A stretch of DNA of 34,044 nucleotides, from positions 1 to 34,044 of IMG/VR virus record IMGVR_UViG_3300035654_000010; one strand, 5' to 3'. The notes beneath the pieces are model-generated. The model did no database searches, was not told where the DNA came from, and saw only the letters and a program-made list of their open reading frames with translations. The translations under genes were made by a program, and so were the position numbers. Source of the DNA: a virus. Below are positions 97 to 33,149 of this stretch, piece by piece (within the stretch, counting starts at the first letter, position 1; every line of letters begins with the position of its first letter).

Positions 97-104
97 TATT
101 TATG
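97..104 (-). promoter_or_regulatory. CATAAATA promoter
   Basis: Perfect CATAAATA, spacer AACGT, predicted start A at 91. There is no ORF directly downstream in the window, only the pseudoknot and terminator. Confidence 0.55.
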
Positions 105-127
105 AGTGACACAAACAAACGTGCAAA

Positions 128-442
128 TTAATACCTAACTAAGTGTGAATCACTAGGTATTACCTTGACCTTAGCTGTTTTAGTTACTTGTTGAGTTTTA
201 GGAGTTCGGTTAAATTCTTCAGCTCTTGACCAATGTTGAACACCACGACCATCACTTTTAGTTGAAATCCAGTACTTAGCACCAACACGTAAGCTGTTTA
301 ATAGAAATCGGTCTTCCATGTTGTATGTCTTCCACGTAAAGGTTTGGTCTTTATTACCGTATGCAAGGTTGTATTTGACTGTTGATTGTGTAATCTCTTG
401 TACGATGATTACGATACTGCTGTAGTTGGCTGACTTGTTCAT
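128..442 (-). CDS. Small beta-rich protein, paralogue of the 31892-32461 protein
   Basis: 104 aa, function not recognised. ATG after TAGGAAAACTT. Residues about 9-62 form a beta-rich stretch with the pattern IVxxxxxTxxTVxYxL, a W about 10-14 residues later and then LRVGAKYWIST. The 31892-32461 protein has the same order (TIVVTKVTEDTVYYRLL, a W, then LSKGGKYVWVST), so the two are probably distant paralogues at opposite ends of the window. No membrane segment or enzymatic motif is seen. It is last in the leftward cluster, separated from the gene before it by a hairpin at 460-481, and followed by the pseudoknot/terminator region. The ORF is secure; its role is unknown. Confidence 0.65.
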   Translation of the reverse strand: MNKSANYSSIVIIVQEITQSTVKYNLAYGNKDQTFTWKTYNMEDRFLLNSLRVGAKYWISTKSDGRGVQHWSRAEEFNRTPKTQQVTKTAKVKVIPSDSHLVRY

Positions 443-459
443 AAGTTTTCCTAAAGTAA

Positions 460-481
460 AGGCTGGGTGTTATCCCAGCCT
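460..481 (-). terminator. Intergenic hairpin, weak terminator
   Basis: An 8-bp stem AGGCTGGG/CCCAGCCT with a 6-nt loop is followed on the minus strand by TTTACTTTA. It lies between the 488-934 gene and the 128-442 gene and could reduce readthrough or act as an RNA processing site. Confidence 0.5.
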
Positions 482-484
482 AAG

Positions 485-492
485 TATTTAGT
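485..492 (-). promoter_or_regulatory. Variant promoter motif ACTAAATA
   Basis: One mismatch from the CATAAATA family. It contains the TAA stop of the 488-934 gene; the sixth base after it is G. It lies upstream of the 128-442 gene, but the hairpin at 460-481 follows at once. This is a weak member of the set. Confidence 0.3.
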
Positions 493-934
493 GCTTATCG
501 CTCAATTTCCGTCTTTTTTCTAACCACCACTCGTCAGTGTCGTGTGAATCGTGGTATTTGTTCTCGATTGACAAGTCATAATTTGGATTGGCTCGTGGAT
601 TAGGTGTACCTAAAGCAATACCAAGTTCAGCTGCACGTGATCCGTAATCGTAACTGTAAGGATTGCCACCAACTTCGCTCACATCGAATGGATTGATTGT
701 TAGGTTTATTGGGATCACATCACGATACTCAGCGACGAACTCGTTGGAGACACGTTCAAGTAAAGCAATGTAGCCAGCACGATTAACGTCAGGAATTGGT
801 TGTGACAATTCCTTTTTGAACATCTTGATCAGCCATTCAATAGTGACAACGTGTTGTAACATGCCGTTAACACGAACGTTTATTTCATCTTGGCGTGTTT
901 GTTTTTCTTCAGGTGTTAGGTGTCTAATAGTCAT
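488..934 (-). CDS. Unknown soluble protein, MTIR-LT-EE start
   Basis: 148 aa, not recognised. Its start overlaps the stop of the previous gene (TAATG), so the two are probably translationally coupled. The first ten residues (MTIRHLTPEE) nearly repeat those of the neighbour encoded at 934-1389 (MTIRYLTTEE), which points to local duplication or a shared N-terminal element. The middle is amphipathic and helical; the C-terminal part has a Pro/Asn/Tyr-rich stretch and ends in charged residues. No signal peptide, membrane helix or catalytic motif is visible. It belongs to the small-gene operon probably driven by the sigma70 promoter at 1784-1812. Confidence 0.65.
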   Translation of the reverse strand: MTIRHLTPEEKQTRQDEINVRVNGMLQHVVTIEWLIKMFKKELSQPIPDVNRAGYIALLERVSNEFVAEYRDVIPINLTINPFDVSEVGGNPYSYDYGSRAAELGIALGTPNPRANPNYDLSIENKYHDSHDTDEWWLEKRRKLSDKH

Positions 935-1389
935 TAGCGAACCCCCCTCAGATTTTCAAAAATGTAATAACATTTAACGTATGTACGAAAAACACTGTCA
1001 GCACCATCAGCACCGTAAACTAAATGAGTGTAAACCACATTGCGAAGCCAATTGTTGAATTGATACTTGGTTATCGGCTGACGTGTTGAAATAGCCGTTT
1101 CAACCTGTTCGGTGTAGGCAGTATCCCAAGTTTCATCATCTGGTATGTGTCTAGCTGACTCAACAAATTGCTCTCTACTAAGTACAATTTTGCCATCTGA
1201 GAAGTCTTCTAGTATTTTGCGATGCTTAGCTAGAAGTGCAAGGTCAGTGATCACGCCGTCGATGGCCTTATCAGCCATCGCAGCTAACTTTGAAACCTCT
1301 TTGTGTGCTCGCTTATTTGATTCGATGAGTTCAACCTGTGTAGGGAAAATCTCACGAAGCTCTTCAGTTGTTAGGTATCTAATAGTCAT
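934..1389 (-). CDS. Unknown protein carrying the local paralogue domain
   Basis: 151 aa. Its start overlaps the previous stop as ATGA, and its stop overlaps the next start as TAATG. The N-terminal 80 residues are helical and charged. The C-terminal part carries W-x3-YTE-x-V, then T, N, RN-x-V, T and L at fixed spacing. This aligns without gaps over about 36 residues with the 1879-2217 protein and more loosely with the 1386-1727 protein, so these adjacent genes look like diverged duplicates. The function of the domain is not recognised. Being early-type, small and non-structural, they are candidates for host-takeover or anti-defence roles (inference only). Confidence 0.65.
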   Translation of the reverse strand: MTIRYLTTEELREIFPTQVELIESNKRAHKEVSKLAAMADKAIDGVITDLALLAKHRKILEDFSDGKIVLSREQFVESARHIPDDETWDTAYTEQVETAISTRQPITKYQFNNWLRNVVYTHLVYGADGADSVFRTYVKCYYIFENLRGVR

Positions 1390-3016: not shown

Positions 3017-3090
3017 GGTGAAGACAACGTGAGATCTAACTTTTGCGGAAAATAATCCGCTTGTCCGTTGTCTTTTTTGTCGTGTTCACC
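3017..3090. promoter_or_regulatory. Nested inverted repeats between divergent genes; possible integrase control region
   Basis: Three nested pairs: GGTGAA/TTCACC (3017-3022, 3085-3090), AAGACAACG/CGTTGTCTT (3021-3029, 3066-3074) and GCGGA/TCCGC (3045-3049, 3056-3060). On the plus strand the middle stem is followed by a T-run (3073-3078), as in a terminator just before the integrase promoter. The region may work as an insulator or operator. Confidence 0.5.
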
Positions 3091-3099
3091 GACGCTGAG

Positions 3100-3107
3100 T
3101 ATAAATA
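3100..3107 (+). promoter_or_regulatory. TATAAATA promoter of the integrase gene
   Basis: The only plus-strand copy noticed, and identical to the T4 late consensus. Spacer CATTT, predicted start A at 3113. A sigma70-like TTGTCG lies 17 bp upstream of TATAAA (3077-3082), so host RNA polymerase might also use it. Confidence 0.6.
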
Positions 3108-3142
3108 CATTTAGTAATTTAACTTTTCTGAGGAGAAAAACA

Positions 3143-4252
3143 ATGATACTTAAACCAGCACACAGCTCTAACTACCATTACAAATTTATGGTTGAAGGCA
3201 AAACATTTAGAGGTAGTTGTCACACAGCTAACAAAGCTAAAGCAGTTCAATACGAAGCTAAAGTGAAGTCTGAAATCTATAATAAGGTCTATCTTGAATC
3301 TGACCGCGAGCACATCACTGTGCGTGAAGCTGTTAAACGTTTCATGAAAGACAACAGCACAGCATTACAAAAGAACCACGACTTCCTACAACGTAAGGTC
3401 TTTGGTGAAAGTAAAAAAGGAACTAAGTTATTTGGTCTTCAGGCAAGGATCACTATAGACAAATTGTCAGAACGTGACTTACAGGAGCTAATTACAGCTC
3501 GTCGTGAAGAAGGTTTTAGCAACTCAATCATCTTGCACGAGTTGGTGTTTATCAACCAAGTGATACTTCATGCTCGTAGACTTGGGTTTCGTGTTCCACA
3601 AATCAACATGTCGGATTTAAAGAAAGCTAATCGTGTACAACCAGCCAAATCACCAATTCGTTATTTGTCACCTGAAGAAGAAACAAACCTAATTAAAGAA
3701 TTAAGTAGAACGGTTGAAGGTTCAGCTGCTGCACATACCAATTTACAACGTATAGACACAATGCAATTCACCGTACTGCTTTTAGACTTAGGTTGTCGTT
3801 ATGGTGAATTGGCAAACATGAAGTGGGATCAAGTCGATCTTGAAAGTGGCTTTATTAGAGTGTGGAGATCTAAGGTTAAAAACGAGTCAGTATTACTTGT
3901 CACTGATCGAGTACGTTCAATCTTAGAAGATAGACTTAAAGTTAAGCACCCTGAACAAATCTACATCTTTGAAAATTCTAGAGGTGGACCACGTAACCAC
4001 ATTCGTGGAGCATTCCAATCTGCTTGTGATAGAGCTGGAATTGAAGGTATTAGTTGGCACAAACTACGTCACACATTTGCTAGTAAATTAGTACAAAGTG
4101 GAATTAGCTTGTATTACGTTCAACAGTTATTAGGTCATGCAAATGTATCTACAACAGAACGCTATGCACATCTAGCACCTAGTTTGGCTGCAACACAAGC
4201 AGCAGCAATTTTAAATAATCTGAACCAAGCTAATTTACAAGTAAACATTTAA
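3143..4252 (+). CDS. int: Tyrosine recombinase (phage integrase)
   Basis: 369 aa from the ATG at 3143 (TGAGGAG 7 nt upstream). The upstream in-frame TTG at 3068 is rejected because it would read through the palindromes and the promoter. It has an N-terminal arm-binding/SAM-like region (about 1-165) and a C-terminal catalytic domain. Catalytic residues: R219 (LGCRYGEL), H306 and R309 (WHKLRHTFAS), H332 (LLGHANVSTT) and the nucleophile Y341 (TERYAHL). The length fits phage integrases. It catalyses site-specific recombination between attP at 4541-4586 and the host tRNA-Phe gene. No excisionase is recognised. Confidence 0.97.
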   Translation: MILKPAHSSNYHYKFMVEGKTFRGSCHTANKAKAVQYEAKVKSEIYNKVYLESDREHITVREAVKRFMKDNSTALQKNHDFLQRKVFGESKKGTKLFGLQARITIDKLSERDLQELITARREEGFSNSIILHELVFINQVILHARRLGFRVPQINMSDLKKANRVQPAKSPIRYLSPEEETNLIKELSRTVEGSAAAHTNLQRIDTMQFTVLLLDLGCRYGELANMKWDQVDLESGFIRVWRSKVKNESVLLVTDRVRSILEDRLKVKHPEQIYIFENSRGGPRNHIRGAFQSACDRAGIEGISWHKLRHTFASKLVQSGISLYYVQQLLGHANVSTTERYAHLAPSLAATQAAAILNNLNQANLQVNI

Positions 4253-5150: not shown

Positions 5151-5158
5151 TATTTATG
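5151..5158 (-). promoter_or_regulatory. CATAAATA promoter
   Basis: Lies 15 nt upstream of the 4854-5135 gene. Spacer AAGGT, predicted start A at 5145. If that start is right, most of the AAAGG Shine-Dalgarno lies outside the RNA, leaving a 9-nt leader. Confidence 0.6.
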
Positions 5159-8596: not shown

Positions 8597-8604
8597 TATT
8601 TATG
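8597..8604 (-). promoter_or_regulatory. CATAAATA promoter overlapping a stop codon
   Basis: Its TAA (8600-8602) is the stop of the 8600-9697 fibre gene. Spacer ACAAC, predicted start A at 8591. Drives the 8115-8561 gene and those after it. Confidence 0.65.
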
Positions 8605-9697
8605 ATTTAACGCAACGTAGTACTATGCTTACGTTCGTGGCTACATTTGGATTTGATAATGTGATTGCCAACTTATCACCGACAGTTACTGTATTTAAAG
8701 CTGTAGCAACCGTATTTGTTTGAGTCGTTGTAACAGCTAAAGCACCTAATCCAGTAATCGATGTGCCGTTTTTGGTAATGTTTGCTGTGATAGTTCCTGC
8801 ATCTGTTTTAGTACGAACGCTCAGTACAGTGAAACTCAATGTGCTGTATTCGAGAAGAGTAGACGTAAGGTCAATTCCATAAGGTAAGGTTAATTGAATA
8901 GCGAACTCAATAAAATTTACCGAATCCCAAGTAGTGCCGTTATAACTTTTCATCGTGTGGGTAGTAGTGTCATACCACAATTTACCGAGTACGCCAGTTG
9001 GTGCTGTACTCTGAACCACGTACTGCGCTTGCATTGATGCAAGGCTAGCTGAAGCTAAAGATGCTTGAGTTGTAGCTGTAGTTGCAGACGTCGAAGCGTT
9101 GCCAGCTTGTGTGGTTGCAATACCTGCTTGAGTTGTAGCGGTTGAAGCTGAACTTGCTGAAGCACTTGCAGACGTTGAAGAATTGTTAGCACTAGTTAGT
9201 GCGGCAGCTGCACTAACTGCTGCCTGTGAAACCTGTGAAGTCATAGCAGTATCAACATAATGTTTGGTAGCAACGTCTTGATCGAATACAGGATCCAGCA
9301 CGTTAATGATTCGCTGGTTTTGTGCATCCAATGCACCACCACCAACCGTTTTAACTGTAGATGAACTCAAGTCTTGCACCATCATAACTACACGGTCGAA
9401 GTCAGCATCTAAGGTCGCTGAAGTTAAACCAGCACCTTCTTGATAATCTGACTCACGCTCCAGTGCAACAATACGTTGTAAACGAACTATTACTCCACTT
9501 GTTGGTGGATCCATGAACACAACTGTACCGCCACTCGAATCACCAACTCCATTAATGGTGAAACCAGATGATTGTAAAGCACCATCGAAGAACACATTCA
9601 TGTCACCTTCGGTTAGTAAGTAAAAGGTGAACGGAAAGCTGGTAACTGATCCGTTACCTGTGTACGTGTTGAATGGAATCTGACTTGATACTGGCAT
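8600..9697 (-). CDS. Tail fibre protein with T7-type N-terminal anchor (second fibre)
   Basis: 365 aa. Residues about 1-150 match the T7 gp17 N-terminal virion-attachment domain (PFNTYTGNGSVTSFPFTF, DADFDRVVMMVQDL). An Ala/Ser/Thr-rich coiled linker follows (about 152-230, repeated TTQAGIA/TTQAGNA). Then comes GKLWYDTTTHTMKSYNGTTW, a small motif common in phage fibres, and a beta C-terminal domain likely to be the receptor-binding tip. It shares the anchor with the fibre encoded just upstream (9719-11518) but has a different distal part. ATG at 9697 with AAGGACATTA upstream. Confidence 0.8.
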   Translation of the reverse strand: MPVSSQIPFNTYTGNGSVTSFPFTFYLLTEGDMNVFFDGALQSSGFTINGVGDSSGGTVVFMDPPTSGVIVRLQRIVALERESDYQEGAGLTSATLDADFDRVVMMVQDLSSSTVKTVGGGALDAQNQRIINVLDPVFDQDVATKHYVDTAMTSQVSQAAVSAAAALTSANNSSTSASASASSASTATTQAGIATTQAGNASTSATTATTQASLASASLASMQAQYVVQSTAPTGVLGKLWYDTTTHTMKSYNGTTWDSVNFIEFAIQLTLPYGIDLTSTLLEYSTLSFTVLSVRTKTDAGTITANITKNGTSITGLGALAVTTTQTNTVATALNTVTVGDKLAITLSNPNVATNVSIVLRCVKS

Positions 9698-9718: not shown

Positions 9719-11518
9719 TTAGTAGTCTGTCTCTAAGTACCACTGCATCAAATTCCATGCGACTGCTGATGCAGTAGCGTTATTGGTCATCCAAGCAACT
9801 GGTGCTAGGAATGTTGTAGATGTAGGTATGTTGGATGAACTAAGGGAACCTGATGTTGTTGCACCAGTTGATACATTCGTTACGACGTATTGAACAACCG
9901 TATCGTTAGGTTTTGCGTATAGAGTGAACTCCATTACGTCTGTGGTATTAAGTGGGAACGAAGCTCCAAGTGGAATCACGTTAATACCGATACCACCTTG
10001 TGTGTGAACCAAGTTCCAGTTACCTGTGTTGGTATTTACAGCTAATCCAATTCTTGCGACAGAAGTTAATGTAACGGGATCAACGTTTGTAGGTGCTACC
10101 ACCTGCTCCGACAACCCAGTAAAAAATCTATTACCTGCAACAAGAGTATTGGTTGCAAATCGTTGAGTGAATAAGAAGCCACCTAATCCTGCTGCATCAC
10201 CTCTCCAACACTCGTAGTTCGGTGAGTATGCTGAAGCAAAAGCACCAGCAGTTGCTGCAGATGTGATGGTCAGTCTTCTCATAGAGCTTCTCAAGTTCGC
10301 ATTAGATAACGAAGGTGCACTTAACGTACCCACGGTGGTTACAACCATTCCGAAGGAACTTGGTACAGCACCAGATGCTGTTATTAAACACACACGGCTC
10401 TGACTCAGCGACGGTTGAAAAGAATACTCAGAACCTTCAGGGCCGCGCCACGTTGGAACGATCCTACCAGCTAAGTTGTTGGCATAAAGTACACCATTGC
10501 CACTGGCTGGTGCAGCTTGTGTGCTTGTTGATAGAGTAAGAGCTGTGCCAGTTGAACTAGTAAGCCACGTATCAACATACTGCTTTGTTGCAGCACCTAA
10601 CGCTGCACTTGGATCAGCGTTTAAGATTAATGAGCCAGTCATCGTTGAACCAGCTTTTTGAACAGCACTAGTCGTAGCCGTATTGATTGCACTAGTCTTA
10701 GCTGCATCTACGTATTGCTTTGTAGCAGCACCTAACGCTGCACTTGGATCAGCACTAAGGACTAGTAAGCCAGTCATCGTTGATCCAGCTTTTTGAACAG
10801 CATTGGTTACAGCAGCATTTACGGCTGTTGTCTGATTTGAATCGTTGGTATTAATTGAAGTGGTAAGTGTTGATGCAATCCCATCTACGTACTGTTTAGT
10901 AGTCGCACCCAGTACATTGCTTGGGTCAGCATTTAAGATCAAAGGACCAGTCATAGTTGAACCAGTTTTAACCACTGTATTCGCTAACGTACTGGAAGCA
11001 CTAGCTGCTGCTGCAATTGCTGCATCTCTAGCATTTAGAGTTGCTTCTGTAGCAGCACCCGACAAGTGCTCAACGAAGTACCTAGTAGCATAGTCTTGAT
11101 CGTTTACTGGTTCACCAGCACCTGTGATTCGGCTACCATCTAACTCAATGTTGGAGTCATTTAAGTTGTAGCGAACTACACCTGCATCTAAGTCTTGAAT
11201 TTGTCTAACGACACGATCAATGTCGCTATCTAAAGTCGTAGAAGATAGTGCTGCACCTTCTGTATAGTCAGTATTTCGATCTAATGAAGTAACACGCTTG
11301 ATGTATACCAAAGCATTCAACACTGGTGCAGTAACGAACGTAACTGTTCCACCTGCTGAATTACCTGCGCCTGAAACGCTGTAACCAGTAGCTTGTACTA
11401 TCCCGTTAACATACACTTTTAAATCTGCATTGACGCCAATCTGAAAGGTATACGGAAAGGCTTTAACGGATCCGTTGCCTGTGTACGAGTTGAATGGGGT
11501 TTGAACTTGAGTTGTCAT
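9719..11518 (-). CDS. Tail fibre protein with T7-type N-terminal anchor (first fibre)
   Basis: 599 aa. Residues 1-150 form the gp17-like anchor (PFNSYTGNGSVKAFPYTF, DSDIDRVVRQIQDL). Three copies of a 30-residue unit, KxGSTMTGxLxLxADPS then LGAxTKQYVD, occupy about 183-212, 242-271 and 287-316 and form a trimeric shaft in related fibres. The remaining 270 residues are a beta-rich receptor-binding domain with no recognised enzymatic motif. ATG at 11518 after AAAAGGCTTATAA; own promoter at 11544-11551. Adsorption role. Confidence 0.85.
   Translation of the reverse strand: MTTQVQTPFNSYTGNGSVKAFPYTFQIGVNADLKVYVNGIVQATGYSVSGAGNSAGGTVTFVTAPVLNALVYIKRVTSLDRNTDYTEGAALSSTTLDSDIDRVVRQIQDLDAGVVRYNLNDSNIELDGSRITGAGEPVNDQDYATRYFVEHLSGAATEATLNARDAAIAAAASASSTLANTVVKTGSTMTGPLILNADPSNVLGATTKQYVDGIASTLTTSINTNDSNQTTAVNAAVTNAVQKAGSTMTGLLVLSADPSAALGAATKQYVDAAKTSAINTATTSAVQKAGSTMTGSLILNADPSAALGAATKQYVDTWLTSSTGTALTLSTSTQAAPASGNGVLYANNLAGRIVPTWRGPEGSEYSFQPSLSQSRVCLITASGAVPSSFGMVVTTVGTLSAPSLSNANLRSSMRRLTITSAATAGAFASAYSPNYECWRGDAAGLGGFLFTQRFATNTLVAGNRFFTGLSEQVVAPTNVDPVTLTSVARIGLAVNTNTGNWNLVHTQGGIGINVIPLGASFPLNTTDVMEFTLYAKPNDTVVQYVVTNVSTGATTSGSLSSSNIPTSTTFLAPVAWMTNNATASAVAWNLMQWYLETDY
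10571..10972 (-). repeat. Three GSTMTG/TKQYVD shaft repeats in the fibre gene
   Basis: Three coding repeats spaced about 59 and 45 codons apart. The last two are nearly identical in DNA across AGCACCTAACGCTGCACTTG, which indicates recent duplication. Confidence 0.85.
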
Positions 11519-11542: not shown

Positions 11543-11968
11543 TTATTTATGAATTTCGGGATTAGTAATGGTAAGAGTGACCTTTTCACCACTAGCCAAA
11601 GCATCGTTTATCAACTTGAAAACACTGTTGAACGCCACTCTACTATTCAGTATCGATTGTTTGTCAGCAGCTATTGCAGTACCTACCAGTATGCAACCTT
11701 CGGTATCTTTTTTTGTATTGCCTGAGTGAATACGAACACCAGCAAAGCCAGCCACGTTTCCAAGCAATGGCAGTAGTTTTTTAAATCTAGCTGACATAGT
11801 GATTGTTACTGGATAAGTACCAGCTGGTATTGCAGTTTCTGCGTAGACCTTTTCACCAGTCTTGCGAATGGTGTCTTCTAATGTGTAGCAAAGGAACACA
11901 CCATCCTTAGTTAGTGTGCCAATGGTTGTTCCTGTTGTTGTTTGATTTCTAGTCAGAACTAAATTCAT
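11543..11968 (-). CDS. DUF5675-like protein, candidate cell-wall lysis enzyme
   Basis: 141 aa from the ATG at 11968, which has GGAGGAACAACTT upstream; the open frame to 12064 lies inside the terminase gene and is rejected. Matches the DUF5675 pattern: early TxGTIGxL, YTLED, E-x-AIPAGTYPV and the signature RIHSGNTxxDTEGCILVG (H81, G91, C92). The H...GC arrangement recalls L,D-transpeptidase/carboxypeptidase active sites, so an endolysin-like peptidoglycan role is plausible but unproven. It overlaps the end of the terminase gene by 20 nt, and its final codons CAT AAA TAA form the next promoter. No other lysis enzyme is seen. Confidence 0.65.
   Translation of the reverse strand: MNLVLTRNQTTTGTTIGTLTKDGVFLCYTLEDTIRKTGEKVYAETAIPAGTYPVTITMSARFKKLLPLLGNVAGFAGVRIHSGNTKKDTEGCILVGTAIAADKQSILNSRVAFNSVFKLINDALASGEKVTLTITNPEIHK
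11544..11551 (-). promoter_or_regulatory. CATAAATA promoter formed by the last codons of the lysis gene
   Basis: The codons CAT-AAA-TAA of the 11543-11968 gene are the motif. Spacer AGCAA, predicted start A at 11538. CTCTTACCA lies 17 nt upstream (11569-11577). Drives the first fibre gene. Confidence 0.65.
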
Positions 11969-20827: not shown

Positions 20828-20835
20828 TATTTACT
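20828..20835 (-). promoter_or_regulatory. AGTAAATA promoter for a leaderless GNAT gene
   Basis: A variant box, with spacer CATCT and ATG starting exactly at the sixth base. It overlaps the TAG stop (20834-20836) of tail tube B. The same spacing occurs at 33142-33149. Confidence 0.5.
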
Positions 20836-22812: not shown

Positions 22813-23376
22813 TTAGTACCTCACAGCTAACAACGGAGAAGTTTGCTGGAATAGGTTGTCTGTGATGTCTTCGCTAGCGTCTAAGTATTTAGATCGACGA
22901 AGAACCATCTCGTAGTTCTGCATAGCAGCAGATTGTTCTACTGGATTTTTTGTAAGTGGGTAAGACAGATCAAGACGAAGTTGCGCAATCATCGTGTCTA
23001 CAAAACCAGCTGACCACGAGCTTACGTCTTCTACATCTCTTACGTATTTGATGTAGCAAGTAGAACTATTAGATAAAATCTTACGACCTTCTAGTCGCCA
23101 GTCTGATTGGTAGCTATCTAAGAAGCGGATGTAATCAGCTGGCAGTGTGAATTGATACTCAAATTCGTACAGTGGCTTCTTAGCATCAGGTGCTAATTCA
23201 ATACGCGCTACGGAAAAATTCCATGTGTGTAGGTTTAAAGTTTTAGTGCGTGCTAAATCAAAGAACGTATTGCATAACGTCGATGTAGTAGTGCCTTGAG
23301 ATAAGCTGTTGATTGGTGAAGCACCTAACTGAGCCAACGCTGAGTTACAGATACTTACTTGAGAAATTGATGCCAT
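22813..23376 (-). CDS. Tail tubular protein A (T7 gp11-like)
   Basis: 187 aa. Starts ISQVSICNSALAQLGASPI, then CNTFFDLARTKTL, W-F-A (TWNFSVARIEL), YQFTLPADYIRF and YPLTKNP, all standard features of the podoviral gatekeeper/head-tail adaptor. It forms the dodecameric ring joining portal and nozzle. ATG at 23376 after AAGGGGCTTATCTA; promoters at 23405 and 23489. First gene of the leftward tail-ejection block. Confidence 0.93.
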   Translation of the reverse strand: MASISQVSICNSALAQLGASPINSLSQGTTTSTLCNTFFDLARTKTLNLHTWNFSVARIELAPDAKKPLYEFEYQFTLPADYIRFLDSYQSDWRLEGRKILSNSSTCYIKYVRDVEDVSSWSAGFVDTMIAQLRLDLSYPLTKNPVEQSAAMQNYEMVLRRSKYLDASEDITDNLFQQTSPLLAVRY

Positions 23377-23404
23377 TAGATAAGCCCCTTACAGTTGATA
23401 GGCT

Positions 23405-23412
23405 TATTTATG
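23405..23412 (-). promoter_or_regulatory. CATAAATA promoter of the tail/ejection block
   Basis: Spacer AGCCT, predicted start A at 23399, 22 nt before the ATG of tail tube A. CTCTTACTA lies 16 nt upstream (23429-23437). Confidence 0.7.
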
Positions 23413-23488: not shown

Positions 23489-23496
23489 TATTTATG
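23489..23496 (-). promoter_or_regulatory. CATAAATA promoter just after the capsid terminator
   Basis: Spacer GGTAT, predicted start G at 23483. It restarts transcription directly after the terminator at 23501-23521. Confidence 0.6.
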
Positions 23497-23553: not shown

Positions 23554-24357
23554 TTACGCCTCTGTACAAGCGATTTCGATTACACCTGCTGGATCGATAA
23601 TCACTGAACCCATTGATACAGTTGTGCTGATCAATGTTGAGTCTTTTTCAGGTACACGTTCAATCAATGTTTTAAGATCTTCACCTGTTGCACAACCAAC
23701 TGCTGACTTGTTGTACATTACACATGAACGAACATTTGAAGCTACTGGTAGCAAGTTTGATTGAATAACATTGAAACCCATCACTTCAGAGATCTTGCCT
23801 GTTTGGGCACCCATCAAAGTTGTGTAGTCACGTGATGTTAATTTTGGATCTTTCAACATGTCGCTGATTTGTTTTGGTGAAACGATTAGGTATAACTCAC
23901 CGTTGTATGCTTCAGCTTGTGCTAATAGTGTTTTTGCTTCTAAAAGTTTGTCAAATGTTAAGCCTGATGTAGCTGTCACTGATGGAGTACCACCAGTTAA
24001 AGTTGTGATCAAGTTCGCATCTACAGCACGGTTAATAGCATTAGCTGTAACCTTAGCGTAGTAAGCACGCATTTGAATGTTTGATTTGTTTTGGTCCATA
24101 CGATCCCAATAAATGGCAGCGTATTTGTCAACCAATGTAGCTGTCACAAATTGGTGATCAGGGTTCAATGGTGTGATGTCACCGTTACGTGTTTTTGATG
24201 TTGCAACTACGCTACCCAATACTGGGAATTGAGCTGTTGAACCTGTAATACCACGCAATAAAGTGGTTGTTCCCATTACTAGGGATTCTGATTGTTGGTA
24301 AGCGATTTTGATTTCGTCGCTAAAATGCTTGATGAAAATGTTATCTACTGCTGCCAT
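23554..24357 (-). CDS. Major capsid protein
   Basis: 267 aa, with the look of the podoviral HK97-fold capsid family: FSDEIKIAYQQSESLVMGTTTLLRG at the N-terminus (N-arm), QFPVLGSVVATSKTRNGDITPLNPDH, a central DKYAAIYWDRMDQNK, helix DKLLEAKTLLAQAE and a C-terminal strand region. Shorter than T7 gp10. Its leader is about 140 nt with (CAA)5 and AAGGAAG before the ATG, and a private promoter and terminator make it a monocistronic, probably abundant transcript. Confidence 0.85.
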   Translation of the reverse strand: MAAVDNIFIKHFSDEIKIAYQQSESLVMGTTTLLRGITGSTAQFPVLGSVVATSKTRNGDITPLNPDHQFVTATLVDKYAAIYWDRMDQNKSNIQMRAYYAKVTANAINRAVDANLITTLTGGTPSVTATSGLTFDKLLEAKTLLAQAEAYNGELYLIVSPKQISDMLKDPKLTSRDYTTLMGAQTGKISEVMGFNVIQSNLLPVASNVRSCVMYNKSAVGCATGEDLKTLIERVPEKDSTLISTTVSMGSVIIDPAGVIEIACTEA

Positions 24358-24497: not shown

Positions 24498-24505
24498 TAT
24501 TTATG
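24498..24505 (-). promoter_or_regulatory. CATAAATA promoter of the capsid gene
   Basis: Spacer ACTGC, predicted start A at 24492; leader of about 135 nt. It follows the HNH stop by a few bases. Confidence 0.65.
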
Positions 24506-24507
24506 CT

Positions 24508-24993
24508 TCACTGAATGTGTGTTTCCACATACCTCAACAAATCCCTTATCTCTTGCAGGGTTAAGGCACTCTTTAGTTGATTTGCTCGCCAAGAAATAAT
24601 CTGAATGTTCGATGGGATGTAGCCTTTGGTTGAGTCGACACGGTCAACAGAAATTGAGTTGGGACCTCGGCCTTCTCCTAACTCTGTTTGGAGCAACGGA
24701 ATACCAAGTACAGGACAAAATTCGGGAACATCTGGAAGGTCTTCGATGGTTAAGCTGAATTCAATGTTTCGTTTTTTAGCACTTGCTCTGAGTCGACCTA
24801 ACATGTAATTTTTTGGGTTTTCAGTTCGCCATTTATGTTCAGCCACTTTCGCTCTTGCTTGGTTTTCAGGAAGAGCGCGTCTTTGTTTCTCAACGATTCT
24901 TAAAGCCTCAGCATTTGCCTCTCTCCATTTTTTAGACCTAATCCTTGCCTGCTCATTTCTCTCAGCTTCGATTGAATTCCTTGATTTACCCAC
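24508..24993 (-). CDS. Free-standing HNH homing endonuclease
   Basis: 161 aa, GTG start with GGAG 8 nt upstream. An N-terminal basic helical region (1-60, KKWREANAEALR) is followed by the nuclease core: CPVLGIPL (93-100), NSISVDRVDSTKGYIPSN (112-129) and IISWRANQLKS (132-142), the pattern of phage HNH nucleases of the endonuclease VII-like type. It makes a double-strand break or nick and probably promotes its own spread. It interrupts the usual scaffold-capsid neighbourhood and has its own promoter and terminator context. Confidence 0.85.
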   Translation of the reverse strand: MGKSRNSIEAERNEQARIRSKKWREANAEALRIVEKQRRALPENQARAKVAEHKWRTENPKNYMLGRLRASAKKRNIEFSLTIEDLPDVPEFCPVLGIPLLQTELGEGRGPNSISVDRVDSTKGYIPSNIQIISWRANQLKSALTLQEIRDLLRYVETHIQ

Positions 24994-25011: not shown

Positions 25012-25039
25012 AGACCAGAAACATTTCTGCGTCTGGTCT
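25012..25039 (-). terminator. Intrinsic terminator after the scaffold gene, overlapping a promoter
   Basis: Stem AGACCAGA/TCTGGTCT (25012-25019, 25032-25039), followed on the minus strand by TTTTTT. Its first arm begins in the CATAAATA box at 25039-25046. Confidence 0.85.
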
Positions 25040-25046
25040 ATTTATG
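25039..25046 (-). promoter_or_regulatory. CATAAATA promoter embedded in the terminator
   Basis: Spacer GACCA, predicted start G at 25033. An RNA started there lacks most of the 5' arm of the terminator stem and would escape it, while readthrough RNA from the scaffold gene would be terminated. Drives the HNH gene. Confidence 0.6.
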
Positions 25047-25079: not shown

Positions 25080-25877
25080 TTACTTGCTGTTGCGCTTGTA
25101 CCAATCCTCTACAGCAGAGAATAGTTCTTTGCCTTTTGGTGAGCCTGAACCATACTCAGGATCCTTCATCATGGCGTTCTTCTCTTCTTCAGACATACGT
25201 CCACGAGGTGACGATGATCCACCAGCTGAAGGAGTTGAGTCTTCAGCCATGTCTGCACCAATGCGAGACAGGATGTCAATTAAATAAGGATTGTTACCTA
25301 CAGCTTCCATGGGAATGTCTGATGGAACATAGGCGTTAAAAGCACGTTTTGCGTTTTCAGACATCACGTCGAAACGATCACCCCAAGCTTCGGTTAAGTA
25401 AGCATGAGTTTTTTCAGGAGATGGTAAAAATCTACCCATTTCAGCTTCGTACTGTTGCATCATCCATTGGTATTGATCAGTGGTAATTCCCTTTTCAATC
25501 GCCTGAATTTTTAGATTGCCTAGTATTTCAGGGTCTACATCAAATCCTTGAGGCGTGTATTCGTATGCATCGATTGAGTCAGGAACGTTAGCAATGCCTT
25601 TTCCCTTGGCAAGCTTCTCTAGGTTCGTGTATGACTTAGCCATTAACGCAACATCGGGCAAACCATTCTTCATAAACTTAGCTGGAACCCAGCTATAGTC
25701 AGAAGCTGGTGGTGCTTCGGTGGTAGTTTCTTCTACTTCTACTTCTGCCACTGGTGCTTCTACAGACTGCTCGACTTGCTCTGCAGCTACATTTGATTCA
25801 ACTGTTTGTTCTACAGTTGGTGTTGCGGTTTGTTCTACTACTGGTGCTTCTACTACTGGTGTTGAGTTTTCCGACAT
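25080..25877 (-). CDS. Scaffolding protein (T7 gp9-like)
   Basis: 265 aa, acidic. Low-complexity N-terminus of about 60 residues made of Val/Glu/Pro/Thr repeats (VVEQT, TVEQT, VEAPVAEVEVEE), then YSWVPAKFMKNGLPDVALMAKSYTNLEKL, the conserved scaffold segment, WMMQQYEAEMGRFLPSPE, WGDRFD and a basic C-terminal hairpin ending VEDWYKRNSK. It directs capsid assembly and leaves the prohead. Ribosome site AAGGAGCCCGTT. Followed by the 25012-25039 terminator. Confidence 0.88.
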   Translation of the reverse strand: MSENSTPVVEAPVVEQTATPTVEQTVESNVAAEQVEQSVEAPVAEVEVEETTTEAPPASDYSWVPAKFMKNGLPDVALMAKSYTNLEKLAKGKGIANVPDSIDAYEYTPQGFDVDPEILGNLKIQAIEKGITTDQYQWMMQQYEAEMGRFLPSPEKTHAYLTEAWGDRFDVMSENAKRAFNAYVPSDIPMEAVGNNPYLIDILSRIGADMAEDSTPSAGGSSSPRGRMSEEEKNAMMKDPEYGSGSPKGKELFSAVEDWYKRNSK

Positions 25878-26355: not shown

Positions 26356-26381
26356 ACTGGGTTCTCCTCAAATAACCCATG

Positions 26382-26389
26382 TATTTATG
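26382..26389 (-). promoter_or_regulatory. CATAAATA promoter overlapping the portal stop codon
   Basis: Its TAA (26385-26387) ends the portal gene. Spacer CATGG, predicted start G at 26376. Drives the Bbp19-like, small and scaffold genes. Confidence 0.65.
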
Positions 26390-28046
26390 TGACTTGATCC
26401 ACAAGGTTAGAAGTTTGGCCTTTTGTTAGTTGTTGGCCTTGTGATTGCAATAACTGCATTTGCTGTTCTTGCTGTTGTTGAGCTGCTTGTGCGTCTGCAC
26501 GTTGCTTACGAATAGCTTCAACTTCACGATCTTCTCGCATCAATTCAACTGGTATGCCTAACATCTCTGCACGTTTTTGAACTGCCATGTCAGCGTCATA
26601 CAAGTCTAAAACTTGAGGGCCTAACACTTGAGCTGATTGAGCTAATGCTGCTTCAAATCTATCCATAGCAGCTACTTCATCGAAACGTTGTGCTCTTGCT
26701 AGTGGTGATTTGTATTCAGGTACAAACTTGAACATTGCTAATTCTTCAGGTGGTTGACCTAAGTCGCCACCACGATAAGCTAATCCGAACACGCGAGAAA
26801 TTAATGGGTTTAAAAACTCAGCTTGCAAACGACCATACGTAGGGCCTAAGATTTGACGAATGATTTGTGTTCTTGTACGAACCTCTTCAGCAGTCATAGG
26901 ACGATTTTGTTGTGATGGAGCCAACTCATCACTCATCATCATTTGTTTGATTTGTGAACGAAGTTGTAACATAACGTTTTCAGCAATACGGAAGTCACCA
27001 GCTTGGCTTAATGGCTTAATGTGATCCACGTCTTCAACGTAAGTGATAGAGCCTGGCATCACTCGGAATGTATTCGTGTTAATCATTGTGTCAATTTGTG
27101 CAACGTAGCTACCACTGATAGCCATGCTTGCGTTTGTTAACATCAATTTCTTAATTTCGTTTAATGTTTTAACGTCAGGCAATGCATCAGTAAATGGACC
27201 TACCGCGTACTCTGTATTTGGAATTACGCTCCAACGAGGAACGATTACAGGGAATTCGTGATAGCCACTTTCGTAAACCACCTTAGAACTTGACTCACAT
27301 ACGTATGTAGATTCAAAAGGCAATTGCTTATTAGTTTTACCATTAGCTTTACGACCATTTCTGAAGCGTGGACGGATAGTGTGAATGTAGTGATGTTGTT
27401 TAGGGTTATCAGGATCTTCGTCATACATGCGTTGCTGCTCGGCACTCAACCCATTCAATCCAAACTTAGCTACGGCTTCACTTAATGTGTATGCACATCT
27501 ACGGTATAGAGTATTAATCTTTTCAGATTTATCACTATCCATGACATACATAGAGTCTAAAGGCCAACACTCGAAGTGCAAACGACCTGTAGCCTCATTA
27601 CGCTCAACGTATAAACCAGCCATACCAGCAATCGTTACGTCTAAGAAGAACTCAAACGCCTGAGCATCGTAGTTAGAACTGTGGATCATGCTGTACATAG
27701 TTTCAGATGAGCTTTGTAACCACGATCTTACTGAACGTGGAATCTTTGCATCAGGCACGTCAGGAATGCTCAAAGCAAACCATTGACTTGATTTAGGTGT
27801 TAATCCACCAATTAAACTATTAGCTAACAAGCGACACGCTTCCGCACCAGTGGTGTCATAGATTTCTGATCGTTGAGTTCTAGCTAACCCAGCACTCATT
27901 ACTCCGTCGCCCATTGCCCCTGCAAAGAAGCCTTGACCTCTAATCGGAAAGCTATACTGAAATGCCTCACGCCAGTGTTGATCCAACGGTGCTCTTACTG
28001 CTTCTAGTCGTTTAAACGACTTTATTATTTTTGATCCATCAGACAT
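26385..28046 (-). CDS. Portal (head-tail connector) protein, T7 gp8-like
   Basis: 553 aa. Matches the podoviral head-to-tail connecting protein family: RLEAVRAPLDQHWREAFQYSFP at the N-terminus, TTGAEACRLLANSLIGGLTPKSSQWFAL, YVERNEATGRLHFECWPL, a central crown/stem part with PMTAEEVRTRTQ and a Gln-rich C-terminal tail (QAAQQQQEQQMQLLQ). Forms the dodecameric ring through which DNA enters and leaves. Its ATG overlaps the previous stop (TAATG). Confidence 0.95.
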   Translation of the reverse strand: MSDGSKIIKSFKRLEAVRAPLDQHWREAFQYSFPIRGQGFFAGAMGDGVMSAGLARTQRSEIYDTTGAEACRLLANSLIGGLTPKSSQWFALSIPDVPDAKIPRSVRSWLQSSSETMYSMIHSSNYDAQAFEFFLDVTIAGMAGLYVERNEATGRLHFECWPLDSMYVMDSDKSEKINTLYRRCAYTLSEAVAKFGLNGLSAEQQRMYDEDPDNPKQHHYIHTIRPRFRNGRKANGKTNKQLPFESTYVCESSSKVVYESGYHEFPVIVPRWSVIPNTEYAVGPFTDALPDVKTLNEIKKLMLTNASMAISGSYVAQIDTMINTNTFRVMPGSITYVEDVDHIKPLSQAGDFRIAENVMLQLRSQIKQMMMSDELAPSQQNRPMTAEEVRTRTQIIRQILGPTYGRLQAEFLNPLISRVFGLAYRGGDLGQPPEELAMFKFVPEYKSPLARAQRFDEVAAMDRFEAALAQSAQVLGPQVLDLYDADMAVQKRAEMLGIPVELMREDREVEAIRKQRADAQAAQQQQEQQMQLLQSQGQQLTKGQTSNLVDQVT

Positions 28047-28900: not shown

Positions 28901-29365
28901 TTAGTAAGCCTTAGCAACATTTTGTCGTCTTGTAGTTGTAGTTTGATTAGCTACGTCAGTACTAGAATCGTTATCCAAGTAGTACATAGCTTCAGCGTAT
29001 GTTTTACGTCTAGCCAAATCAGCAGCTAGTTGTGTGCTGTTCAAATCAGATTGATTAGTTGCACGATCGCGCTCTTGCTGAGCCTTTAATTCTTCTTGAT
29101 TCTTTTCTTCCAACAATTTCTTTTCTTCAGCTGCTTTTTGAGCATTGACAGCATCTTGTTGGGTTTTAAATTGAAGATCGCCTTGTTGTTTCAATAAAGC
29201 CATTTGTTGTGCTGACTGCTCACGATCAAACGCCATTTGTGTATTCAATTTTTCTGTTTCGAAATCTTGTTGTTGCTTTAGACGTGCAAGCTCTGCATCC
29301 GCCTCAGCCTTAGCTTGAGCACTTAATTCAGCAGCTGAAGGACCGCTGTAACCACCTTTTGACAT
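28901..29365 (-). CDS. Coiled-coil protein, first gene of the structural operon
   Basis: 154 aa. Residues about 10-112 are a near-continuous Gln/Glu/Lys/Ala coiled coil (KQQQDFETEKLN, KAAEEKKLLEEK); the C-terminus has LARRKTYAEAMYYLD and a Thr-rich tail. Shares coiled-coil composition with the next protein, suggesting partners. ATG at 29365 after AGGAGTTAATT; promoter at 29392-29399. In podoviruses this slot often holds head accessory proteins. Confidence 0.6.
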   Translation of the reverse strand: MSKGGYSGPSAAELSAQAKAEADAELARLKQQQDFETEKLNTQMAFDREQSAQQMALLKQQGDLQFKTQQDAVNAQKAAEEKKLLEEKNQEELKAQQERDRATNQSDLNSTQLAADLARRKTYAEAMYYLDNDSSTDVANQTTTTRRQNVAKAY

Positions 29366-29391
29366 AATTAACTCCTATGATGTAATAGGCT

Positions 29392-29399
29392 TATTTATG
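29392..29399 (-). promoter_or_regulatory. CATAAATA promoter of the structural operon
   Basis: Spacer AGCCT, predicted start A at 29386. CTCTTACTA lies 17 nt upstream (29417-29425). Leader has CCTAT/ATAGG around the ribosome site. Confidence 0.7.
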
Positions 29400-29448
29400 T
29401 TTATGTGTGAGTGAAGTAGTAAGAGATCGTTAGTGGTGGACTATTTAG

Positions 29449-29478
29449 AACGGTTTCGTAATCTAGCAGGAACGGTTT
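29449..29478 (+). repeat. Tandem AACGGTTT boxes
   Basis: Two copies of GAACGGTTT(C/T)GT 22 bp apart, on the same face of the helix. Inverted copies (AAACCGTT) occur at 29580-29587 and 30266-30273. Likely protein-binding sites. Confidence 0.5.
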
Positions 29479-30226
29479 TGTGGAATTTTGCTGAAAATTT
29501 TTTGGGTGACTTATAAAACTTTTGCAAAACCTCTACTGGGGCATACCACTATTTACGCGGTCCTTAAACCTCGTAGGCCAAACCGTTTGAGTCCTTCTTA
29601 CTGTATCCATCCTTCAACTTCTACAGTCTCAGATCGTTTAATCAATTAGGGTAACAACCAATTTTATTTTTAATCGGATTCATAATCCGCAAGCTGTCCG
29701 CATGGTTAGTAGGTTGTAGAAGGACTGAGTACAATCGTAGTCATAAATTGTTATTAACAGTCGTAATACGATAGTTGAGTTAGCTGTTTAGACTATGTGG
29801 TTACTGTTAAGCTGACCGTAGGATGATCAAGCTCGTGAGGTAAAAATCATTAGGTGAGATGACTTTAAACAAATCTACCGCCTTGTTGATCCATACTGAA
29901 TCACCTTAGTATTCCTTCTAATCCATTAGATAGTTCTTATAGTCTCTACTTCTACTATTTCATCTATTAACTAAGTATTCCTACTTCTTCGACGACTTTA
30001 TGTAGTGATTGGGTTCCTATAAACCGTCTAGGACTGGAGATCGTCATCGTGCTGGTGTATTGGCCTAGGCTTAATTCTTCCTAGATTATTCATTTGTTAA
30101 TACTTCTCTTCTTGCTTCTCTTCCTTAATACATTACTGATGTAGATGACATAAAAGATACTTTCATTGTTACTTCTACTGATCAAGAGGGAGGTTGGATA
30201 CACAATTCCTATCGCTACGCTCAGGT

Positions 30227-30250
30227 AACTTCAGCTTCACAACTGAAGTT
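30227..30250. terminator. Hairpin before the plus-strand genes
   Basis: Stem AACTTCAG/CTGAAGTT with an 8-nt loop, followed on the plus strand by AAATTTATTT. A weak terminator or regulatory hairpin. Confidence 0.4.
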
Positions 30251-30335
30251 AAATTTATTTACCCTAAACCGTTGTCCTCATCTCACTTCATGTTGATTGT
30301 TGACTTACCGACTAACAAACAAGTGGAGTTACAAA

Positions 30336-30527
30336 ATGAAAACAGTTCCAGATTTGATTACAGATAATGACTTTAGTGATTGTCATTCAGTAAGTGAAGT
30401 ACGTAACAAGATAGATGAGTACTTCGACAAGATTGTGTTCAGCTTAGAGAAATCAGAGTGGAATTCAATGAGTGAAAGTGTGAAAGCAAACGTAGTAGTT
30501 AGTATTTTTCGTAAACTAGGTTCATAG
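30336..30527 (+). CDS. Small unknown protein
   Basis: 63 aa from the ATG at 30336 (MKTVPDL), preceded by GTGGAGTTACAAA; an upstream in-frame start at 30297 lacks a ribosome site. Acidic, helical (SVSEVRNKIDEYFDKIVFSLEK), C-terminus VKANVVVSIFRKLGS. Ten bases before the next gene, so a two-gene rightward operon opposite to its neighbours. No family recognised; possibly an early or lysogeny regulator by position. Confidence 0.55.
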   Translation: MKTVPDLITDNDFSDCHSVSEVRNKIDEYFDKIVFSLEKSEWNSMSESVKANVVVSIFRKLGS

Positions 30528-30537
30528 GAGATTCATC

Positions 30538-30858
30538 ATGGCTAGACAAACCAAACAACAGTTGATTGCTTCAATGGTAGATAAAGAACAATCTAAATTC
30601 GACAAACGTATTCAGGAATTAAAATTGAGATTAGAAGCTGAAGAGATTAAAAACAAACCTATTGATGGTGACGACGTTGATGTGATTCATTGTGAGATGG
30701 TGATTAAGGAATTGATAGCTTCAAAAGGAATCAATGGATTGAAACTAATCGACTTCTTAGCTAAAGAAATTATTGGTAAGGAAGCTCGTGTGTTGTACAG
30801 GAAACCACGTGTGATTAAAGCTAACATTCCTGTTTTCGGTAAGAAAGGATCAAAATAG
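30538..30858 (+). CDS. Small basic protein with coiled coil
   Basis: 106 aa, ATG after TAGGAGATTCATC. Coiled-coil N-terminus (about 1-40, KEQSKFDKRIQELKLRLEAEE), acidic turn DGDDVD, then a helical-strand part (ELIASKGINGLKLIDFLAKEIIGKEARVLYRKPRV) and basic tail. The middle has the feel of a small DNA-binding domain, but I see no certain helix-turn-helix. Terminated by the palindromic hairpin at 30903-30922. Confidence 0.6.
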   Translation: MARQTKQQLIASMVDKEQSKFDKRIQELKLRLEAEEIKNKPIDGDDVDVIHCEMVIKELIASKGINGLKLIDFLAKEIIGKEARVLYRKPRVIKANIPVFGKKGSK

Positions 30859-30902: not shown

Positions 30903-30922
30903 AGAGAGGCCTAGGCCTCTCT
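30903..30922. terminator. Perfect 20-bp palindromic terminator
   Basis: AGAGAGGCCTAGGCCTCTCT followed on the plus strand by T5. Ends the rightward genes and, on the minus strand, the leftward small genes whose last stop is at 30926. Confidence 0.88.
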
Positions 30923-31512: not shown

Positions 31513-31830
31513 TTATTCCTTCGCACTCAACAAGTTTTCTAAAACTTCTATTCGATCTTTCAGATCCTTAATTGTTGGTTCATTTGAAGCAGTTGCTTCT
31601 TTTTTGGAACGCATCCTGTCCATTCTTGCTTTGTTCCTGTAAGAATCTTTCATCCCCCACAACAGTACAGCTTCATGACTCGACAATAAGTCAAAAGCAG
31701 TACTTTTGTTAAAGAAGCCATGTTTCATACCATGCAATCGATTTATTAAACCACTTACTTTTTCATACTTTTCTTCGTTACTCAACCTCGAATCGCTCCA
31801 TAGGTCGTCTAAAAAATCCTCTACAAACAT
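31513..31830 (-). CDS. Small helical protein, first in its operon
   Basis: 105 aa, ATG after TGAGGAGATAACAA. Mixed helical N-terminus (MFVEDFLDDLWSDSRLSNEE, SGLINRLHG), a middle basic stretch (SYRNKARMDRMRSKKE) and a leucine-zipper-like end (IKDLKDRIEVLENLLSAKE). Promoter at 31868-31875 with a leader nearly identical to that of the 2377-2625 gene. Unknown; a regulator is possible because of basic and zipper parts. Confidence 0.6.
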   Translation of the reverse strand: MFVEDFLDDLWSDSRLSNEEKYEKVSGLINRLHGMKHGFFNKSTAFDLLSSHEAVLLWGMKDSYRNKARMDRMRSKKEATASNEPTIKDLKDRIEVLENLLSAKE

Positions 31831-31867
31831 TTGTTATCTCCTCAGATTTGTGATCTATTCACAGAGG

Positions 31868-31875
31868 TATTTATG
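31868..31875 (-). promoter_or_regulatory. CATAAATA promoter
   Basis: Spacer CCTCT, predicted start G at 31862. Leader GTGAAT...TGAGGAG shared with 2664-2671. Drives the small genes from 31830 to 30926. Confidence 0.65.
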
Positions 31876-31891
31876 CGTTTACCTTCAAAAG

Positions 31892-32461
31892 CTAGGAAAA
31901 AAGGCCTGAACTATCAATTAATTGGCTTAAATCGTTATTTTCGGTAGTGGGGACCGTTAAAGTTGGTAAAAAGTGATGTCGGAAGTCGTTATTCGATTGC
32001 CAGTATTCAGTTAAGTCATCTACGTCTTCGATGAATAACATCTGTGCTGAAGTCAATTCATGTGCTTCGAAGTCTTCTACAAGCGTTGAATACAAGTCAG
32101 TAATGTGTCTGTAGTCGTTTTTATCCAGCAAATTAATCAATGTGTCTTGATCAATCACCTTCAGCTCTTTGTATTTGTCGTATGTCATTAAGGGGAATGT
32201 TGATACCCATACGTACTTACCACCTTTAGATAGTGTGTTAATGCCGTATGGTTGATCTATTTGGAAGTGATTTGGTTGAAGAGGGGAAGTTTTGGTTGAA
32301 GTCCAATGGTAAATTCGTGGATTACTACTCGAAAGTAGCCTGTAATACACCGTATCTTCTGTCACTTTAGTCACAACAATCGTTAATTGTCTACCTACCG
32401 TCGAAGCTTGTTCATTACCCTTACTTCGATTTACGTTGTATTCCTTATTGTGACTCTTCAC
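31892..32461 (-). CDS. Unknown protein, paralogue of the 128-442 protein
   Basis: 189 aa from a GTG at 32461, chosen because AGAAGGA lies 8 nt upstream and the overlap with the previous gene is 17 nt. An in-frame ATG at 32596 would overlap that gene by 152 nt and is less likely; the start is uncertain. The N-terminal half has the beta pattern TIVVTKVTEDTVYYRLL...W...LSKGGKYVWVST shared with the 128-442 protein. The C-terminal half is acidic and helical (DDLTEYWQSN). Function unknown. Confidence 0.55.
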   Translation of the reverse strand: MKSHNKEYNVNRSKGNEQASTVGRQLTIVVTKVTEDTVYYRLLSSSNPRIYHWTSTKTSPLQPNHFQIDQPYGINTLSKGGKYVWVSTFPLMTYDKYKELKVIDQDTLINLLDKNDYRHITDLYSTLVEDFEAHELTSAQMLFIEDVDDLTEYWQSNNDFRHHFLPTLTVPTTENNDLSQLIDSSGLFS

Positions 32462-32882
32462 GAGCAGCTTCCTTCTCAGCTTTGATTCTAGCTCTTTTAG
32501 CAGCCGCATTAATACTGGCGACTTCTCTGGCTTTAACTCTATTACGTGCTCTACTCTGTGCAGATAGTTTGAGATTGTGTAATCTAATCTCTTCAACTGT
32601 TAGCTTAGATAGATCGGTTCTCATTGCATGAGTATTTGGGTTTTTCTCGTTTTCTTCTGCTTTTTTCATGTCTTCAACGAAAATAATTCGGTCTTGTATG
32701 CCAAAAACTACGTCTTTTAGTAGAACAATGGCTCGTCTGTGTTGTTTGAAGTTCAGCTCATTTGTTTGAAATAGGTGCACTGACAAGTTAGTAATTGAAG
32801 GGATCAGCTCTTCCATAGGAACTACTTCGGTGTAATGCACACCTTGACTAGTCCTGATTATTGCTCTGTATGTAGTTGTCAT
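32445..32882 (-). CDS. Small protein with very basic C-terminus
   Basis: 145 aa, start in ATGA overlap with the preceding stop. The N-terminal 75 residues form a mixed strand-helix domain (TYRAIIRTSQGVHYTEVVPM); from about 95 it becomes an Arg/Ala/Lys helix (SAQSRARNRVKAREVASINA, AKRARIKAEKEA) likely to bind nucleic acid. Because a sigma-like or co-activator protein for the CATAAATA promoter must come from somewhere, it is one candidate, but no sigma motif is visible. Confidence 0.55.
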   Translation of the reverse strand: MTTTYRAIIRTSQGVHYTEVVPMEELIPSITNLSVHLFQTNELNFKQHRRAIVLLKDVVFGIQDRIIFVEDMKKAEENEKNPNTHAMRTDLSKLTVEEIRLHNLKLSAQSRARNRVKAREVASINAAAKRARIKAEKEAAREESQ

Positions 32883-33136
32883 TTCTTGTTCAATTCAGCG
32901 ATTACATGTTTTAATTTGGTCAATTCGGTGATCAATTTGTCACTTGTGATGTGTTTGTCTTTGTGTAATTTGGTTAGTAAGTGGGTTGCTCTCTTAGTTA
33001 ATACCTCAAACTTGCCTGTTGGATCAGTCGAATGTGAAATACCAAAGGCAGTAATTCGATAGCTGTACTTCTTTACTGGCTTTTTATCTGAATTAATTTC
33101 AGCTTTGATGTGAGCTACTAATTGAATTGGTGTCAT
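32879..33136 (-). CDS. Small basic protein, predicted leaderless
   Basis: 85 aa, basic (KKPVKKYSYRI, HLLTKLHKDKH) with a helical C-terminus ending LNKK. No ribosome site: the ATG starts exactly at the sixth base after the AATAAATA box at 33142-33149. Overlaps the next gene by ATGA, so the following genes depend on its translation. Function unknown. Confidence 0.55.
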   Translation of the reverse strand: MTPIQLVAHIKAEINSDKKPVKKYSYRITAFGISHSTDPTGKFEVLTKRATHLLTKLHKDKHITSDKLITELTKLKHVIAELNKK

Positions 33137-33141
33137 CCATG

Positions 33142-33149
33142 TATTTATT
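33142..33149 (-). promoter_or_regulatory. AATAAATA promoter for a leaderless mRNA
   Basis: Spacer CATGG, predicted start at 33136, the A of the ATG of the 32879-33136 gene. Confidence 0.6.

Follow-up and report, generated by a model that had tools for sequence, protein, structure and literature searches.

The question raised by this locus is whether one short sequence word can drive nearly all the genes of a phage and, if so, which protein reads it. The window, that is, the whole stretch of DNA analysed, is a virus record of 34,044 bases whose ends are not closed, and as a linear record with open ends it is probably fragmentary. The window phage is a small, T7-shaped, temperate podovirus, in which structural genes akin to T7-like families stand in the T7 order. 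The genes that matter here are as follows.

26385-28046, minus strand: portal gene
25080-25877, minus strand: scaffold-like gene
23554-24357, minus strand: major head protein gene
22813-23376 and 20834-22810, minus strand: two tail tube protein genes
11949-13481, minus strand: large terminase gene
Minus strand: an acetyltransferase gene, internal virion protein genes, two fibre-like genes and a spanin-like gene
3068-4252, plus strand: integrase gene
30339-30527 and 30538-30858, plus strand: pair of small genes that lack the motif and keep their position in relatives

Among named phages, the closest relatives are YeP4, HTVC010P-type pelagiphages and epsilon15-like phages, whose portal, capsid and tail genes are approximately 30-39% identical to those of the window; a strand-biased intergenic motif was found in none of those examined. 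We rejected the idea that the structural relatives, HTVC010P, YeP4 and Piluca among them, have the motif in common, because NATAAATA occurs in them near expectation or mostly inside genes. Scans of genome collections found no prophages of the window's type. The small gene at 2698-2970, which adjoins the integrase gene, is conserved at 40-47% in two of the closer relatives introduced below, G002 and G003, and the fibre-like genes at 8600-9697 and 9719-11518 share a similar N-terminal part, both matching one fibre gene of G002.

A repeated octamer and its predicted start

The copies of the motif in the window are listed below, where "arm" denotes the 5' arm of a predicted leader hairpin.

97-104, minus: CATAAATA; predicted start 91, downstream gene past the window edge
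485-492, minus: variant ACTAAATA; overlaps the stop codon that ends ORF 488-934; start predicted at 479, gene from 442; GGCTGGG/CCCAGCC forms a strong leader hairpin
2256-2263, minus: variant GCTAAATA; upstream of ORF 1879-2217; weak member
2374-2381, minus: CATAAATA; shares bases with the stop codon of ORF 2377-2658; not followed by an obvious gene of its own ahead of the copy at 2256
2664-2671, minus: AATAAATA; arm CCTC (2660-2663) pairs with the Shine-Dalgarno sequence GAGG (2634-2637)
3100-3107, plus: TATAAATA; before the integrase gene; predicted start 3113; sole plus-strand copy
5151-5158, minus: CATAAATA; start predicted at 5145, with the spanin-like ORF beginning at 5135
8597-8604, minus: CATAAATA; overlaps the stop of ORF 8600-9697; leader to 8561 unstructured
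11544-11551, minus: CATAAATA; falls within the final codons of ORF 11543-12064; leader runs to 11518
13509-13516, minus: CATAAATA; leads into the large terminase gene; AGCCC arm (13504-13508) with GGGCT (13487-13491) as its partner
14023-14030, minus: AATAAATA; before ORF 13523-14002
20828-20835, minus: variant AGTAAATA; predicted leaderless, base 6 (20822) being the first base of the ATG start codon of ORF 20346-20822
23405-23412, minus: CATAAATA; before tail gene 22813-23376; arm AGCCT (23400-23404) pairs with GGGCT (23383-23387)
23489-23496, minus: CATAAATA; tandem partner of 23405
24498-24505, minus: CATAAATA; before the major head gene 23554-24357; leader of about 140 nt
25039-25046, minus: CATAAATA; before the HNH endonuclease gene 24508-24993; predicted start 25033; terminator-like hairpin, arm GACCAGA (25032-25038) pairing with TCTGGTC (25013-25019), then TTTTTT
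26382-26389, minus: CATAAATA; overlaps the stop of the portal gene; arm TGGGTT (26374-26379) pairs with AACCCA (26358-26363), the loop holding the Shine-Dalgarno sequence
29392-29399, minus: CATAAATA; leads into ORF 28901-29365 and the portal block; pairing of arm CCTAT (29385-29389) with the Shine-Dalgarno bases ATAGG (29374-29378)
31868-31875, minus: CATAAATA; arm CCTC (31864-31867) pairs with GAGG (31840-31843), the Shine-Dalgarno sequence of ORF 31513-31830
33142-33149, minus: AATAAATA; predicted leaderless, base 6 (33136) being the first base of the ATG start codon of ORF 32879-33136

The first-pass annotation had taken these 20 places, at all of which the sequence it gave is present, as one promoter family lying upstream of nearly every transcription unit. 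The comparison with shuffled sequence that it proposed revealed a clear excess and a minus-strand bias of CATAAATA, which occurs 13 times on the minus strand and 0 times on the plus strand of the window, as against means of 1.06 and 0.67, respectively, and a largest count of 6, in 300 dinucleotide shuffles. There are 16 minus-strand copies and 1 plus-strand copy of NATAAATA, and by ORF coordinates all 17 are either intergenic or share bases with the final codons of the preceding gene; at 2374, 8597 and 26382, the TAA of the motif is itself the stop codon of that gene. The claim of near-universal placement holds for the minus strand and the integrase gene, but not for the plus-strand pair at 30339-30858, which has no copy. 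The one-base variants, which had been counted as members, are not enriched as a class (130 found, 131 expected), so that it is position alone that speaks for ACTAAATA at 485, GCTAAATA at 2256 and AGTAAATA at 20828, and GCTAAATA is two bases off the motif, not one.

Base 6 after the motif is a purine at all 20 listed places. That list had been selected, in that 19 of the 27 minus-strand TAAATA were taken, but the purine stands in the unselected NATAAATA copies as well (17 of 17; background 0.52, from 1,015 TAAATA in other phage loci), whereas the chance of one in a million that had been attached to it softens, for the window alone, to 0.52^17, or approximately 1e-5. Beyond the octamer, this purine alone stands out in the window. 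Neither a -35 element nor any other conserved upstream column was found in the window or among 39 sites from three genomes, and the extended -10 TG was likewise absent from the 39 sites. The base directly after the octamer is T in 0 of these 39 sites from the first three genomes and in 3 of 58 sites from four.

The four-genome set consists of the window and its relatives G001 (L030), G002 (L031) and G003 (L054). Seven copies of the motif occur in G001 (15.3 kb, GC 0.53) and 15 in G002 (27.7 kb, GC 0.56), the latter mostly along two divergent coding arms; G003 (31.5 kb, GC 0.48) has 15 coding-strand copies with the base-6 purine, and G006 (L144; 21 kb, GC 0.54) carries the motif on the coding strand in fewer copies. 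Almost none would be expected by chance in these relatives of 48-56% GC, and the strict word is common to relatives spanning 41 to 56% GC. Where the coding direction of G002 flips, near 18.5 kb, the strand of the motif flips too, with back-to-back copies at 18462 (minus) and 18525 (plus), and the motif in this respect behaves as promoters do. Across the four genomes, base 6 is a purine in 48 of 58 copies, against the background of 0.52, and base 5 is a pyrimidine in 66%. G005 and G008 are AT-richer, and many of their copies lie inside genes. These sequence statistics give good support to a single family of sigma-type promoters, with a T4-late-like octamer and a predicted start near the sixth base downstream, and nearly all genes of the window appear to be driven from this one short word. 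The observation made in the first pass is confirmed at the level of sequence, and it is stronger than stated once the relatives are included.

The late promoters of T4 carry TATAAATA and depend on gp55, gp33 and gp45. The window motif has in common with them the octamer, repeated ahead of genes on their coding strand, the lack of a -35 element, and the enrichment of a purine at base 6, which was found in 13 of 16 T4 copies of TATAAATA tested alike (two stretches, mostly of the late region). It differs in that its first base is mostly C and that T is rare directly after it, and the phages themselves differ, because the window phage is a T7-like temperate podovirus in which a gp55 homologue was not found. 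The NATAAATA form is known from cyanophage S-PM2 (PMC2984593), and a literature search on CATAAATA promoters in phages found nothing relevant.

Putative leader hairpins overlapping the predicted starts

The predicted promoters are overlapped by a layer of putative leader hairpins, which the first pass had missed and which has the same architecture in relatives. In silico pairing of the nine bases that follow the octamer with bases 12-45 gave an energy of -5.81 kcal/mol over the four genomes, as compared with -3.84 kcal/mol for permuted arms (z = -8.0), and each genome alone gave the signal (p = 0.0004 for the window, 0.0064 for G001, 0.0008 for G002 and <0.0002 for G003). The signal peaks with the arm at the octamer's end and is lost from an offset of +5, and the arm sequences vary from gene to gene, which means that they are not one repeated element. 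The 3' partner usually lies over the Shine-Dalgarno sequence or start codon, as at 1557 in G001, where the GTTCGTC/GACGAAC pairing reaches the ATG, and sometimes the hairpin is a terminator; at 23314 in G002, CCCCCTGA/TCAGGGGG is followed by T-rich sequence. G005 and G008 gave no arm-pairing signal, and G006 gave p = 0.08 only. The hairpin is absent at 5151, 8597, 11544 and 14023 of the window, and at 485 of the window and 15978 of G006 it outlasts truncation at the predicted start.

The predicted cost of opening the Shine-Dalgarno sequence and start codon, in leaders whose start codons were picked by a simple score, is 9.9 kcal/mol in read-through RNA, 3.4 kcal/mol in RNA starting at base 6 and 7.6 kcal/mol with random arms (n = 41). 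The difference is partly due to the mere removal of upstream RNA; the value for random arms leaves approximately 2.3 kcal/mol for the natural arm, so that about one-third of the drop is specific to it. At the terminase gene (13509), opening of the start region is predicted to cost 25.4 kcal/mol in read-through RNA versus 3.6 kcal/mol in RNA from base 6.

The explanation that we favor, with a probability of roughly two in three, is one of T4-late-type promoters with overlapping leader hairpins that partly insulate the genes, read by an unrecognised gp55-like factor. The [C/N]ATAAATA copies would be -10-type promoters, each an extended TATA-like octamer without a -35 element that directs initiation about six bases on, and the octamer would probably be read by the host RNA polymerase with a phage-specific factor, gp55-like in action. 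At many copies, the bases between the octamer and the start would double as the 5' arm of a hairpin that either has the next gene's Shine-Dalgarno sequence or start codon in its 3' arm or loop or acts as a terminator. RNA reading through from upstream would keep the whole hairpin, and translation would be poor or transcription would terminate, whereas RNA from the gene's own promoter would lose most of the arm and be translated. Because the predicted start cuts the arm, read-through RNA would be silent or terminated and own-promoter RNA translatable, and each gene would in this manner be partly insulated from its neighbours. At many genes, probably only messages from their own promoters are translatable.

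Start sites of the T4 genes e, soc, 49 and I-TevI are hidden in upstream-initiated RNA, and in gene e the late promoter is located where the 5' strand of the structure is encoded (PMC3014915). The window leaders resemble that of gene e in that an in silico start-region hairpin has its 5' arm upstream of or across the predicted start, and the arm would be lost from RNA of the gene's own late promoter. They differ from the T4 leaders in that many genes are concerned, those for virion proteins and terminase included, and in that the hairpin is sometimes a terminator; arm pairing is not a general feature of the T4 late region (16 sites, z = -0.9). The systematic overlap of a predicted promoter start with a putatively inhibitory leader hairpin is the new part. 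T4-type late promoter logic combined with hairpin control of the start would now extend to an unrelated small temperate phage, across much of its genome. It also poses a sharp question: are own-promoter and read-through RNAs of one gene translated differently?

The reader of the octamer and competing explanations

Which protein reads a T4-like promoter where gp55 is not found is the question that follows. As the first-pass annotation had said, no sigma factor or RNA polymerase is recognised in the window, here by profile searches, and the T4-late likeness that it proposed stands for sequence and geometry but not for the protein: gp55 was matched neither by the phrog_234 and phrog_12791 profiles nor by phmmer in the contigs searched, which are possibly fragments, and the phrog_12791 search matched T4 as a control. 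The factor may be unrecognised, encoded in missing sequence, or supplied by the host or a helper.

If the missing sequence encoded a single-subunit, T7-type RNA polymerase, transcripts would start at or beside the motif and every mRNA would bear the hairpin at its 5' end. The T7 order and T7-like families of the structural genes and the probably fragmentary window are in keeping with this idea, which we nevertheless regard as unlikely: the polymerase family (PF00940) was detected in none of the window, G001, G002 and G003, nor in YeP4 and HTVC010P, while the T7 control matched; the motif has 8 conserved bases, not about 20 ending at the start; and the base-6 purine is left without explanation. 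It is similarly improbable that CAUAAAUA is no promoter at all and serves as an RNA processing or protein-binding site before a protective or regulatory stem-loop. An A-U-rich single strand beside a stem is a common mark of RNase E sites, and the arm does begin directly at the motif's end, but copies exist without a hairpin, predicted to be leaderless, or before the lone plus-strand integrase gene, and neither the divergent back-to-back copies of G002 nor the strict 8-base word and base-6 purine common to T4 late promoters fit such a role.

Host sigma-70 promoters of the ordinary kind, their -10 element being AT-rich, are a somewhat weaker contender still, given that CATAAAT resembles TATAAT but, if transcription starts at base 6, the invariant TAAATA does not line up with TATAAT base for base, neither a -35 element nor an extended -10 TG is seen in 39 sites, and the strict word is unchanged across relatives of 41 to 56% GC. 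Least probable by our estimate, and very improbable, is a satellite-like phage read by the late sigma factor of a co-infecting T4-like helper. Virophages use the late promoters of giant viruses, T4 late promoters have a matching octamer and base-6 purine, an integrase is present, and none of DNA polymerase A, DnaB-type helicase, RNA polymerase and gp55 was found in the four contigs of 15-34 kb; against this, the contigs are possibly incomplete, the cultured relative HTVC010P likewise has few annotated replication genes, and no helper was seen. The failure to find DNA polymerase A or a DnaB-type helicase in the window, G002 and G003 also raises the question of how the lineage replicates. The window, G002, G003 and G005, at 28-34 kb each, contain structural genes and an integrase, and G005 has a match to a RusA-like resolvase.

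Returning to T4-late-type promoters read by a gp55-like factor, the best local regulator candidate, on position alone, is the plus-strand pair, which is putatively early: a small gene or pair without the motif lies opposite the structural genes in the window, G002, G003 and G005. AlphaFold models one product of the window pair as mostly coiled-coil (pLDDT 70) and the other, of 62 residues, as four-helix (pLDDT 83), and a PDB search with the four-helix model gave no match. We tentatively entertain, as possible though doubtful, that, in this lineage of temperate podoviruses, T4-type late promoters are read by a new, so far unrecognised family of promoter-specificity factors or, in the farthest version, that a lineage without replication and transcription enzymes uses the late sigma factor of a T4-like helper for all virion genes, as a bacterial counterpart of the virophages.

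Other features of the window

The HNH/endonuclease VII-like gene at 24508-24993 has weak PHROG similarity to the T4 Srd and sigma-70 decoy families, and such genes in both the window and G003 are preceded by a promoter at a terminator-like hairpin. A gap of about 900 bases (29400-30338), which separates the structural block from the plus-strand pair, holds no convincing gene; its fold is no more stable than those of shuffles, Rfam gave no match, and G002 has a gap of like length in the same place (approximately 15217-16115). At 30903-30922, between convergent transcription units, AGAGAGGCC/GGCCTCTCT forms a strong inverted repeat accompanied by a T run and is probably a two-way terminator.
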